This document shows, one piece after another, positions 6,622 to 43,650 of a stretch of DNA of 64,000 nt (positions are counted from its first letter, which is position 1; each line of letters starts with the position of its first letter). A model generated the notes under the pieces. It saw nothing but the letters and a program-made list of their open reading frames with translations. It was not told the origin of the DNA and searched no databases. The stretch is taken from assembly GCA_022750435.1 (NCBI GenBank), contig JAKIVS010000008.1, forward strand, positions 1-64,000, in the 5' to 3' direction. A program made the position numbers and the translations under genes. This DNA is from Thermoplasmata archaeon (GTDB lineage: Archaea > Thermoplasmatota > Thermoplasmata > Lutacidiplasmatales > UBA184).

Positions 6622-6862
6622 GGGCATCCGAGGACCCGGACGGTCAGTTTAACCCCTGCGCCTCCGATCGAGGCCCGCGTTCTTCGGAAAGTCCGGCCCT
6701 CGGCGACGGGTCCCGATTCCGCTCCCCGATCGGCCGGCCCAAGGTTCATATGGGGCGGGGAACGTCGTTCAATTCCCAGGGGATGAAGCTCCCCTTCGAC
6801 CGCCCGGCGCGGGCTGATAGCTTCTACTTCGCCGAACCGCGCCACCCCAGAAGGGCGGACCG

Positions 6863-39740: not shown

Positions 39741-39845
39741 GCCGCCGTAACTCAGCGGTAGAGTGCTCGGCTGTTAACCGAATGGTCAGCGGTTCGAACG
39801 GTCGCCCGGTCGTTCCGGAGCGCCCCGAAAGTCCGCTCGGCGGCG
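39741..39845 (+). tRNA. tRNA-Asn(GTT) with an intron in the T-loop
   Basis: Acceptor GCCGCCG pairs perfectly with CGGCGGC (39838-39844) and the discriminator is G. The D-arm is ACTC/GAGT, the anticodon loop CTGTTAA gives GUU for asparagine, and the anticodon stem CTCGG/CCGAA has one mismatch at its base. The T-stem AGCGG (39788-39792) finds its partner CCGCT only at 39833-39837, after a 33-base insertion. Removing bases 39799-39831 gives a normal T-loop TTCGAAT. A CTATTAGAG promoter element lies about 32 bases upstream. Confidence 0.85.
39799..39831 (+). other. 33-base bulge-helix-bulge intron in tRNA-Asn
   Basis: The boundaries fit a full archaeal splicing motif. The outer helix is the T-stem AGCGG/CCGCT. 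The central four-pair helix is TTCG (39793-39796) with CGAA (39826-39829). The three-base bulges are AAC (39797-39799) and AGT (39830-39832). The intron-side stem starts at GG (39800-39801) opposite CC and contains an inner CCGG/CCGG hairpin. Cutting after the second base of each bulge yields the canonical T-loop. The location corresponds to position 59/60, not the usual 37/38. Confidence 0.8.
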
Positions 39846-40137: not shown

Positions 40138-43100
40138 TCAGGTTCCGTCCTCTGACATGGAGGGCACGAATTCGTCGACCGGCGTCCCATCGGGCGCGAC
40201 CGGTGACGCATCGACGCTCGACTCTCCGACTCGGGCCGGGTCGTCGAACCCCTCGGCGGGCGGTCCCCCCTTCGCCCGCCGACGGGAGAGCCAGAGCAGA
40301 GCCACGGCGGCCGCCAGCACGACCACGAGAACCAGCAGCGCCGGCTCGAACTCCGTCCACTCCCTTCCCAGAGCCGTGGTCGCCGCCCCCACGGTCAGGT
40401 TGAGCACCGTTTCCACCGACCCGTTGGCGCTGTCGTTGACCCATAGAGCAACGGTGTACGTGGCCGCCCGCCCAAACGAATGATGGGCGGTGGCCCCCGA
40501 ACCCGTCGACCCATCGCCGAACACCCACGCGAACTGGAGGCCACCGGAGCCGCCGGTGGCGTTGGCGGTAAACACAATCTGTTGGCCGGAAGCGGGAGAG
40601 GACGGAGACGACGAGAATCCGGCGGTGAGGGCGTCCGCGACGACGAACGATACCGGGGAGGAGAGGGCCGTTCCGCCGTTCGAATCCATCACCTCCACGG
40701 TGACCTGGTAGGTGCCGGGCTGGCTGGGAGCGCAGTCTAGGAGCGCGAGCGCCCGCCCGCAGCCGCTCGGGAGCCCGGTCCAGGCGTAGGCGTACCCACC
40801 CGAACCGAGCGCAGGGTCGGCGCGGAGATGGACCGTTTGGCCCACGTCGAGCGCGATCCGGTCCTCCGTGAGGTTCACTGTAGGGGCCGGATACACGGTG
40901 AGGGTCGACGCTGGGCTCGTGACGCTGAGTAGGTTCGAGTCGGTCACCCGCAATTGAATGGCGTAGTGACCCGGTGCCGAGAGAGGGCAGATCACAGGGT
41001 CGGTCGTGGTGGCGCAGCCGCCGGGGAGGCCGATCCAGGCGTACGAGTACCCCCCCGACCCCAACGTGACGACCGCGGCAACCGTCGCCTTCTGGCCGAC
41101 ATCGGCCGACGCCGGGGAGAGGGACGGCGTCGTGACGACGGGGTCATCCAGAACCAGGAACGAGAGGAATCCACTCGCCGGCGACGTGAAATTGTTCGAG
41201 TCCGTGACGGTCACCGAGATCGAGAACGTACCGGCGGGAAGGACAGGCCCCGCGCAGGTGACCGAGGCGCCGGTCCCCGCGCAGCCCCCCGGAAGGCCGG
41301 TCCAAGTGTACTCTTCGTAGGTGCCGGTCCCGAGACTCGCCGTCGTCGTGAACGTCGCATTGGCACCCGCGTCCACCCGCCCCGAGACGTGGTCGCTCGT
41401 CGGAACCGCGGCCTCCGCGTCCGAGTCCACCGTGAAATTCAGGTCGCCGCTGGTGGTGGAGAGTCCGTTGGAATCGGTGGCCCTCACCGAGATGGCGAAG
41501 GTGCCGGTCGCGTTCGGCGTACAGCGAACCGAACCGGGAGCGCTGCGGCACGGGGTTGGGAGGCCCGACCATGCGAACGAGTAGTTCCCGCTACCGGACG
41601 TCGCCATCGGGGAGAACGTGACGGGCTGGCCAAGGTCGATCGAGGAGGGAGAAGCCCTCGGCGTCTCCGCCGTGGGGTCGGTGTTCACCGTGATCACCGT
41701 CGTGCCGGTGTTGCCCGCCGAATCGAGAAGTCGGAGCTGGAACGGCCCGGACGAGGGCTCGGTGGGCGCCGTGAACCTTGCGACGACCGATCCCGAAGAG
41801 TTGGTGTGCATCGTGCCTCCTACGCACGTGCCGACGGTCGCGGAGGTGCAGTTGAGCGAGATCGAACCGAGCGTGAACGTACCGACGGCCACCGAATCCC
41901 CAAACCCGCTTGCCGTCACGCTGACGTTCTCTCCCGAGTCTACGCTCCCCGTGGCGGCGGGGACGGCGACCGTGGAGTTGACCGTGAACGAGTCCGAGGC
42001 CTCCACCCCATCGGAGAGGACGGTCGTGGTGTTCCCTCCCGAGTTCGCGACGAACACCTCGCTCTGACCGGCATCGTAGGCGACGCCCGCCGGGGAGGGT
42101 CCCACGCCGACCGTGGCAACCACCGCGTCGGTGGCGTCCGAGACCACACTGATGTTGTTCCCTCCGAGGTCAGCGACGAAAATCTCGCCGAGGCGGCTGT
42201 CGTAGGCGAGCCCGACGGGTTCGACTCCGACGGGGATTGAGGCGACCGCGTTGTCCGTCCGGTCCGCGATCACCGTCAAGTTCGAGGAGTTGTAGTCCGC
42301 CACGAACATCTCGTCCCGGGCGGGGTCGTAGGCGAGACCGTAGGGGTACCCGCCGACCTGGACGCTCGCGACCACGGTGTTGTTCGTGCCGGAGATTACA
42401 CTGACATTATCCGAGAGGAGGTTCCCGACGAACACCTCTCCTCGGTCGGGGTCGTACGCGACGCTCGCGGGATAGTCTCCGACGGGGATGCTTGCGACCA
42501 CGGTGTTGTTCGAGTCGGCGATCACGCTGACGTTGTGCGAGTTGGAGTTCGCGACGAACACCTCCCCCAAGGCCGGATCGTAGGCGATCCCAAACGGGTC
42601 CCCTCCGACGGCAATGGTGGCGACGACGGTGTTGTTGGTATCGGAGATCACGCTCACGTTGCTCCCGTCGTAGTTCGCGACAAACACCTCACCGGCGCCG
42701 GAATCGTAGGCGAGGGTGGCCGGGGAGCATCCGACCCTCACCGTCGCCACCACGGAGTTGTTGGAGTCCGAAACCACGCTCACGTTGTGGGTACCGCAGA
42801 GCGTCGTCCCCGAGTCCGCGACGAACACCTCGTTCTTGACCGGGTCGTAGGCGATGCCGAACGGGGAGATCCCGACGTCGGTTCCGCCGACAATCCTGGC
42901 TCCGTCCGAAGCCGCGACTGGCTCGACCCCCCCGGGGGCCGCGGGGACGGTGAAGGAGCACGCCGTTCCCGTCGTCCCAGGGACCGTACCGCTCGAATCG
43001 GAGGAACACCCGGAGATCATGGCCCCACCCGCAAACCCGAAGGCGATGGGGGAGCTCGCGGCAAAGCCCGTTCCCGTCGCGCGCGCCCCCGACCCCACGA

Positions 43101-43650
43101 CGCCGCTCATGGGAACAAGAGACAAACTCGAATTCACCGTGAAGGCGGTCGTCGCGTTCGTCACTCCATCGGAGGCCACGACGACCTGCGCTCCCCTCGG
43201 AGTCGCCGGTATCGTCAATGCGCAGGCCGTGCCCGTACTTCCCGGGAAGCTGCCGTTCGAGTCCGAGGAGCAGGTCCAGTTCACTGCGAGACTCGCGAAC
43301 GAGACGGTAATCGAGGCGTTCGCGGCAAACCCGCTCCCCGTCGCGTTGACGCGGTCCCCAACGGTCCCGGACGTGGCCGAAAGCGAGAATGTGGCAATGA
43401 GCGGCCGAGAAGCGTCGACCGCGGAGCGGACGCCGAGCCCGACCGACCCCGTCGCGGCCCCCATGGTGGACGCGAGTGTCGACAGGATGAGGATCGCAAT
43501 CAGCATCAAGAGCGAGAACCGGGAGGCGGGGCGCGGGAAGCGTCTACCCGGGGTTCGGTCTGGATCGACCGGAATCTTCGTCGCCCGCGGTCTGGTCCGG
43601 CGGTGGGAGGTTCCGAATCGCGGCGACCAACCCGTCATCCGTGCCGTCAC
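40138..43650 (-). CDS. giant surface protein: YVTN propeller plus PKD-like repeats
   Basis: A 1,170-residue exported protein. A basic N-terminal stretch of about 42 residues leads to a signal/anchor helix (SLLMLIAILILSTLASTMGA). Then come two IPT-like repeats with paired cysteines (about 90-250), seven 42-residue propeller repeats of the form AYDPxxGEVFVANxxSxNVSV (about 255-545), and a linker domain. Four PKD-like repeats follow, each with GLPxGC and a second cysteine and ending in VTDSN. A standard PKD domain with FVFGDGS-like WVFGDGSTGS comes next, and a C-terminal helix (PALLVLVVVLAAAVALLWLS) with a basic stop anchors it. Many NxS/T sites suggest N-glycosylation. The start is GTG at 43650 (ATG at 43638 possible). 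It fills the first tRNA-bounded insert. Confidence 0.82.
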   Translation of the reverse strand: MTARMTGWSPRFGTSHRRTRPRATKIPVDPDRTPGRRFPRPASRFSLLMLIAILILSTLASTMGAATGSVGLGVRSAVDASRPLIATFSLSATSGTVGDRVNATGSGFAANASITVSFASLAVNWTCSSDSNGSFPGSTGTACALTIPATPRGAQVVVASDGVTNATTAFTVNSSLSLVPMSGVVGSGARATGTGFAASSPIAFGFAGGAMISGCSSDSSGTVPGTTGTACSFTVPAAPGGVEPVAASDGARIVGGTDVGISPFGIAYDPVKNEVFVADSGTTLCGTHNVSVVSDSNNSVVATVRVGCSPATLAYDSGAGEVFVANYDGSNVSVISDTNNTVVATIAVGGDPFGIAYDPALGEVFVANSNSHNVSVIADSNNTVVASIPVGDYPASVAYDPDRGEVFVGNLLSDNVSVISGTNNTVVASVQVGGYPYGLAYDPARDEMFVADYNSSNLTVIADRTDNAVASIPVGVEPVGLAYDSRLGEIFVADLGGNNISVVSDATDAVVATVGVGPSPAGVAYDAGQSEVFVANSGGNTTTVLSDGVEASDSFTVNSTVAVPAATGSVDSGENVSVTASGFGDSVAVGTFTLGSISLNCTSATVGTCVGGTMHTNSSGSVVARFTAPTEPSSGPFQLRLLDSAGNTGTTVITVNTDPTAETPRASPSSIDLGQPVTFSPMATSGSGNYSFAWSGLPTPCRSAPGSVRCTPNATGTFAISVRATDSNGLSTTSGDLNFTVDSDAEAAVPTSDHVSGRVDAGANATFTTTASLGTGTYEEYTWTGLPGGCAGTGASVTCAGPVLPAGTFSISVTVTDSNNFTSPASGFLSFLVLDDPVVTTPSLSPASADVGQKATVAAVVTLGSGGYSYAWIGLPGGCATTTDPVICPLSAPGHYAIQLRVTDSNLLSVTSPASTLTVYPAPTVNLTEDRIALDVGQTVHLRADPALGSGGYAYAWTGLPSGCGRALALLDCAPSQPGTYQVTVEVMDSNGGTALSSPVSFVVADALTAGFSSSPSSPASGQQIVFTANATGGSGGLQFAWVFGDGSTGSGATAHHSFGRAATYTVALWVNDSANGSVETVLNLTVGAATTALGREWTEFEPALLVLVVVLAAAVALLWLSRRRAKGGPPAEGFDDPARVGESSVDASPVAPDGTPVDEFVPSMSEDGT
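42000..42900 (-). repeat. seven tandem 126-base coding repeats (beta-propeller blades)
   Basis: Within the surface protein gene, a unit of about 126 bases recurs seven times, encoding 42-residue YVTN/NHL-type blades. The shared core reads GEVFVAN, then NVSVISD, then NNTVVA in most copies. Seven copies match a closed seven-bladed propeller. Boundaries are approximate. Confidence 0.75.

Follow-up and report, generated by a model that had tools for sequence, protein, structure and literature searches.

Co-occurrence of a canonical T-loop intron in tRNA-Asn and a loop-less α′2 splicing endonuclease in a Lutacidiplasma-related archaeon with many T-loop-interrupted tRNAs

Euryarchaeota are described as having few tRNA introns, all of them at position 37/38 (PMC4090602). 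Non-canonical introns have been tied to splicing endonucleases with an extra loop (PMC12397907), and α′2 endonucleases are considered narrow (PMC6379350, PMC12397907). Another source, however, states that substrates of the bulge-helix-loop kind are cleaved by homodimeric enzymes as well (PMC8707768), and for the α′2 enzyme of A. fulgidus such cutting was reported on full-length pre-tRNA (PMC6379350). Candidatus Lutacidiplasma is placed in the Thermoplasmatota, Candidatus Lutacidiplasmatales (NCBI taxonomy); the paper on this order mentions tRNAs, but not introns (PMC9287336).

We analyzed a stretch of 64,000 nucleotides (the window) from the MAG of a soil-dwelling Thermoplasmatota archaeon that belongs to the genus of Candidatus Lutacidiplasma silvani, in line with the phylum that the first-pass annotation had proposed for the host. 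The tRNA-Asn sequence is identical in Candidatus Lutacidiplasma silvani AcS3-62 and in another genome (G177) of the same genus as the source genome. Elsewhere in the window we found a fluoride riboswitch and a 1170-aa ORF with PKD domains and NHL/YNCE-like β-propeller repeats, which probably encodes a surface protein (Table 1).

Table 1. Positions of the tRNA-Asn gene, its splice-motif elements and further loci named in the text. Plain numbers are window positions; G000 is the source genome.
Feature	Position	Strand	Remarks
Fluoride riboswitch	6770-6833	+	Rfam RF01734, 39.4 bits
tRNA-Asn(GUU) exon 1	39741-39798	+	tRNA positions 1-59, final letters TTCGAA
Outer helix, 5′ strand AGCGG (T-stem)	39788-39792	+	pairs with 39833-39837
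Central helix, 5′ strand TTCG (T-loop 54-57)	39793-39796	+	from folding
5′ bulge AA|C	39797-39799	+	putative 5′ splice site, from folding
BHB intron, 33 nt	39799-39831	+	tRNA position 59/60
Inner intron hairpin	39800-39825	+	39800-39809 against 39815-39825; from folding and covariation
Central helix, 3′ strand CGAA (intron)	39826-39829	+	from folding and strand match across the 13 T-loop introns of the genome
3′ bulge AG|T	39830-39832	+	putative 3′ splice site, from folding
tRNA-Asn exon 2	39832-39845	+	T60, T-stem 3′ strand, acceptor 3′ strand, discriminator G
Outer helix, 3′ strand CCGCT	39833-39837	+	from folding
tRNA with CAT anticodon	39882-39955	+	Met per ARAGORN; 36 nt downstream of tRNA-Asn
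1170-aa ORF	40138-43650	-	PKD and NHL/YNCE-like repeats
EndA gene	G000:C28:243700-245500	-	single copy
tRNA-Lys(UUU)	G000:C15:1602-1738	-	D-loop and T-loop introns
tRNA-Leu(UAG)	G000:C1:3777-3881 region		D-loop and T-loop introns
tRNA-Trp	G000:C6:41800-42200		long anticodon-loop intron
tRNA-Asn, another family of the order	G038:C20:22550-22850		anticodon-loop and T-loop introns
tRNA-Asn, Bathyarchaeota	JAOZHM010000159.1, 2463-2529		26-nt T-loop intron

The sequence at 39741-39845 reads directly as a tRNA-Asn(GUU) gene interrupted in its T-loop, with the acceptor stem GCCGCCG/CGGCGGC, the D-stem ACTC/GAGT, the anticodon loop CTGTTAA (anticodon GUU) and the T-stem AGCGG/CCGCT. The interruption had been assigned to a 33-nt intron at about position 59/60, and this assignment holds: upon its removal all 12 T-stem and acceptor pairs are formed, the T-loop becomes the 7-nt TTCGAAT, i.e., TTCGAA plus T60, and the cloverleaf is complete. 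The mature tRNA is expected to have 72 nt, and its CCA end is not encoded by exon 2. ARAGORN called only a tRNA-Arg and a tRNA-Met in the window and missed tRNA-Asn, for which the Rfam tRNA model also gave only a partial match (39741-39794, 32.1 bits). With finders of the ARAGORN type missing the gene, genomes of this lineage can seem to be without tRNAs such as Asn. As in the window, several genus members carry another tRNA closely downstream of tRNA-Asn.

Folding of 39788-39837 produced a canonical 3-4-3 bulge-helix-bulge (BHB) motif as both the MFE and the centroid structure (-23.5 kcal/mol, z = -2.6, equalled by 2 of 200 shuffles). It consists of an outer exon helix of 5 bp and a central helix of 4 bp set between two bulges of 3 nt each, and is flanked on the intron side by an inner helix with small bulges. 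The complete BHB described in the first-pass annotation, including the bulges AAC and AGT, was thus recovered, with a slightly different register of the inner helix: in the MFE fold this helix begins with an unpaired C39825 and T39802 is bulged, and the other register has one T-C mismatch. In the MFE fold of the full 105-nt precursor, a single-sequence prediction, the BHB was retained and other arms were misfolded. The cut position was placed from the known cleavage of BHB motifs together with the restored 7-nt T-loop.

We consider it highly probable that tRNA-Asn(GUU) is encoded here by a working gene present in one copy, that its 33-nt intron at 59/60 lies in a canonical BHB and is cut out by EndA, with RtcB joining the exons, and that the intron forms part of a lineage-wide expansion. 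In the transcript, the T-stem, exon TTCG and intron CGAA would form the 3-4-3 motif. The α′2 EndA would then excise the 33-nt intron from pre-tRNA-Asn, and RtcB would ligate the exons, restoring the TTCGAAT loop. Judged from the sequence, these are the probable cut sites and enzymes for tRNA-Asn.

To count introns in the source genome, we combined a covariance model of T-loop-interrupted tRNAs with cloverleaf parsing and pattern searches; for Trp, Arg-GCG and Pro-GGG the gene was interpreted by visual inspection. This census, a lower bound, gave 21 introns in 19 of the 40 detected tRNA genes, 17 of them at positions other than 37/38. Thirteen are T-loop introns at 59/60, i.e., in Asn, Gln-CUG, Ala-GGC, Lys-UUU, Asp, Arg-UCG, His, Ser-GGA, Ser-GCU, Glu-CUC, Gly-UCC, Arg-UCU and Leu-UAG. 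Four more lie in the D-loop (Lys-UUU, Leu-UAG, Arg-GCG and one CAT tRNA) and four in the anticodon loop (Tyr, Leu-UAA, Trp and one Met). The Lys-UUU and Leu-UAG genes hence carry two introns each. The double intron of tRNA-Lys(UUU) was also seen at four loci from other families of the class. C/D box guides are found in the tRNA-Trp intron of other archaea, and the long anticodon-loop intron of tRNA-Trp may hold one here as well.

Across the class Thermoplasmata, at least one T-loop intron match (E <= 1e-12) was found in 111 of 200 genomes. Matches numbered 3-9 per genome in all 41 members of the source family that had any, and 0-2 in the genomes listed from other families; with the best 19 candidates scored per genome these counts are lower bounds, and the matches were in part individually parsed. 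The T-loop introns are therefore a lineage-wide expansion and not a lone curiosity. A general and recent transposition of introns between tRNAs is not supported, as intron cores from different tRNAs show little similarity (78 pairs, mean z 0.9). The most similar cores in the source genome, those of Arg-UCG and Gly-UCC (z 5.3), may be an exception to this lack of recent copying.

As tRNA function demands T54, T55, C56 and A58, the central helix is always built from exon TTCG or TTCA and the intron must end in the matching strand. Accordingly, 44 of 52 central pairs were formed in the 13 T-loop introns of the source genome, compared with 23.1 expected for random 4-mers from the same introns; 44 pairs were reached in 0 of 5000 trials. 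All four pairs, with wobble counted, were present in Asn, Gln, Lys, Asp and Arg-UCG, and three pairs in the other eight introns, where pairing failed at position 57 in seven cases. For several of these three-pair introns the central helix was absent from the single-sequence MFE structure. A similar spread was found within tRNA-Asn: of 60 distinct sequences, 22 had four central pairs, 29 had three and nine had two. Most of the weaker helices have a C-C mismatch at position 56, which is seen in most genus members, although the copy in the window is fully canonical. We conclude that a canonical central helix is not required throughout the lineage.

The source genome has an RtcB ligase gene and a single EndA gene. 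The latter encodes, in one 353-aa stretch, PF02778 and PF01974 twice each in the order N-C-N-C, and the catalytic Tyr, His and Lys are intact in the second, C-terminal repeat when aligned to the A. fulgidus and M. jannaschii enzymes. The type of endonuclease had been proposed as a check on the intron. By its two fused repeats EndA is of the α′2 type, and this architecture predicts a homodimer; it differs from the αN-α-βC architecture of the ε2 enzymes (ARMAN). At the site of an insertion like the Crenarchaea-specific loop (CSL), i.e., before the LSL(I/V/L)E helix and with its Lys, all 19 of 19 aligned Thermoplasmata sequences showed a gap relative to the CSL-grafted 3P1Y. A loop-less α′2 EndA together with many T-loop introns conflicts with the view that links varied intron positions to CSL/ASL enzymes.

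One could add to the preferred reading, rather than replace it, that the expansion depends on an altered α′2 EndA which has broad specificity without CSL or ASL and cuts imperfect motifs. The incomplete central helices, in 8 of the 13 T-loop introns and in the 29 and nine tRNA-Asn sequences with three and two pairs, point in this direction, as do near-active-site residues that are common to the family and unlike those of the other Thermoplasmata aligned. In Lutacidiplasma-family EndA, YPRNP or YPRSP follows the catalytic Tyr, where the other aligned sequences mostly have YE[DG]-x-P, and VAQGVRK is found near the catalytic Lys in place of the mostly occurring LAHGV[RK]K. We regard YPR[NS]P and VAQGVRK as candidate specificity changes. 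However, the residue differences may be drift, and some substrates of the bulge-helix-loop kind are reportedly cleaved by ordinary α′2 enzymes (PMC8707768, PMC6379350), so that a change may be needless. We hence propose an altered EndA only tentatively and find it somewhat doubtful. An earlier suggestion that the tRNA-Asn intron could bear on endonuclease specificity needs an addition: the canonical motif in the window makes no special demand on the enzyme, whereas several other T-loop introns of the genome and family are imperfect, and the enzyme is of the α′2 homodimer type and without a CSL-like loop.

Of 106 genomes from the order Lutacidiplasmatales, 79 carry the T-loop-intron form of tRNA-Asn, and a pattern search found no intronless tRNA-Asn among all 106; the remaining genomes are partly incomplete, or their genes are possibly divergent from the search pattern. 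The intron is thus fixed in the lineage. Compared with AcS13-54, the closest relative found, 6 of 105 nucleotides differ, all within the intron, and the exons are unchanged. Over 40 tRNA-Asn genes with 32-nt introns, mean identity was 97% for exons and 55% for introns. Nevertheless, covariation in the inner intron helix is strong, with z = 11.0 over 38 introns and z = 8.1 over a non-redundant set of 19, a level reached by 0 of 2000 partner shuffles. In one relative, a change of T-loop G57 to A is matched by an intron change of C to T (TTCA/TGAA). The site occupied in 79 of the 106 genomes and the covarying inner helix argue that the motif in tRNA-Asn is not due to chance. A chance resemblance to the splice motif is ruled out by the fold, the covariation and the recurrence in other tRNAs of the genome.

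We searched GTDB r220 for tRNA-Asn genes with an interruption following the T-loop sequence and obtained 69 contigs, of which 55 are labelled Thermoplasmata, including Candidatus Lutacidiplasma silvani AcS3-62, and one, labelled just 'bacterium', has the identical arrangement. Twelve bacterial contigs were discarded, those parsed being intronless tRNAs or unrelated matches. A Bathyarchaeota contig carries tRNA-Asn with a T-loop intron and a TTCG/CGAA central helix, apparently of independent origin (Table 1). In other families of the class, outside the order, tRNA-Asn is intronless at five loci and has an anticodon-loop intron at two. A genome from another family of the order (G038), one of those without a match to the search pattern, appears on visual reading to have a tRNA-Asn with both an anticodon-loop intron and a T-loop intron of about 14 nt (Table 1).

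These data also bear on two readings without splicing. The insert could be retained in mature tRNA-Asn as an enlarged T-loop hairpin; the hairpin is stable. The T-loop/D-loop contacts of the tRNA elbow, however, need a 7-nt T-loop, the splice motif is preserved while the hairpin sequence turns over, and EndA and RtcB are present, which makes retention very improbable. Equally hard to credit is a pseudogene, i.e., a spare tRNA-Asn copy broken by insertion with an accidental likeness to a splice motif: standard finders do miss the gene, but an intact copy was found in 0 of 106 genomes of the order, exons are 97% conserved while the intron helix covaries, and 13 tRNA genes share the identical intron position. 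An intact tRNA-Asn elsewhere, which the first-pass annotation had named as counterevidence, was found neither in the source MAG nor in near-complete relatives; the MAG is 84% complete, and a further copy in the same strain is formally possible.

With the spliced, functional tRNA-Asn as the preferred reading, the intron itself is of a known kind and its family-wide expansion is the notable part. We see an even balance for the proposal that Lutacidiplasmatales underwent a large-scale gain of T-loop (and D-loop) introns with a CSL/ASL-less α′2 EndA, either through another active-site change or because α′2 enzymes are more permissive than held. If true, tRNA intron diversity would not be fully explained by the loop-acquisition model. 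The family is species-rich, and nearly half of the detected tRNAs in the examined genome are interrupted, mostly at 59/60, with an enzyme that has no such loop, so that the co-evolution model can be probed directly by biochemical means; the family-wide introns make the disagreement over narrow or permissive α′2 enzymes testable. In the literature searched, we did not encounter the combination of many T-loop introns and a loop-less α′2 enzyme for Thermoplasmatota, which is weak evidence of novelty, and an earlier mention of T-loop introns in Thermoplasma is possible. Mobile elements often integrate into tRNA genes, and an interrupted T-loop may be of benefit by removing the tRNA-gene stretch used for this integration.

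Short BHB introns at T- and D-loop sites, with several per tRNA, are likewise known from Thermoproteales, Thaumarchaeota, ARMAN and Korarchaeum (PMC8450103, PMC4033280). Those lineages have (αβ)2, ε2 or CSL-bearing α2 endonucleases (PMC8450103, PMC4033280), in contrast to the α′2 enzyme without a CSL-like insertion found here. The soil Asgard lineages Atabeyarchaeia and Freyarchaeia show a comparable expansion at non-canonical positions, where 92-95% of tRNA genes are interrupted (PMC11291895); the present one occurs in a different phylum, affects 19 of 40 detected tRNA genes and is mostly confined to one position, 59/60. Closest in enzyme type is Korarchaeum cryptofilum, which likewise combines a two-repeat homodimer-type endonuclease with non-canonical introns and was called the only such archaeon (PMC4033280). 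The korarchaeal endonuclease, however, has the specific loop, whereas EndA of the source genome is without one.
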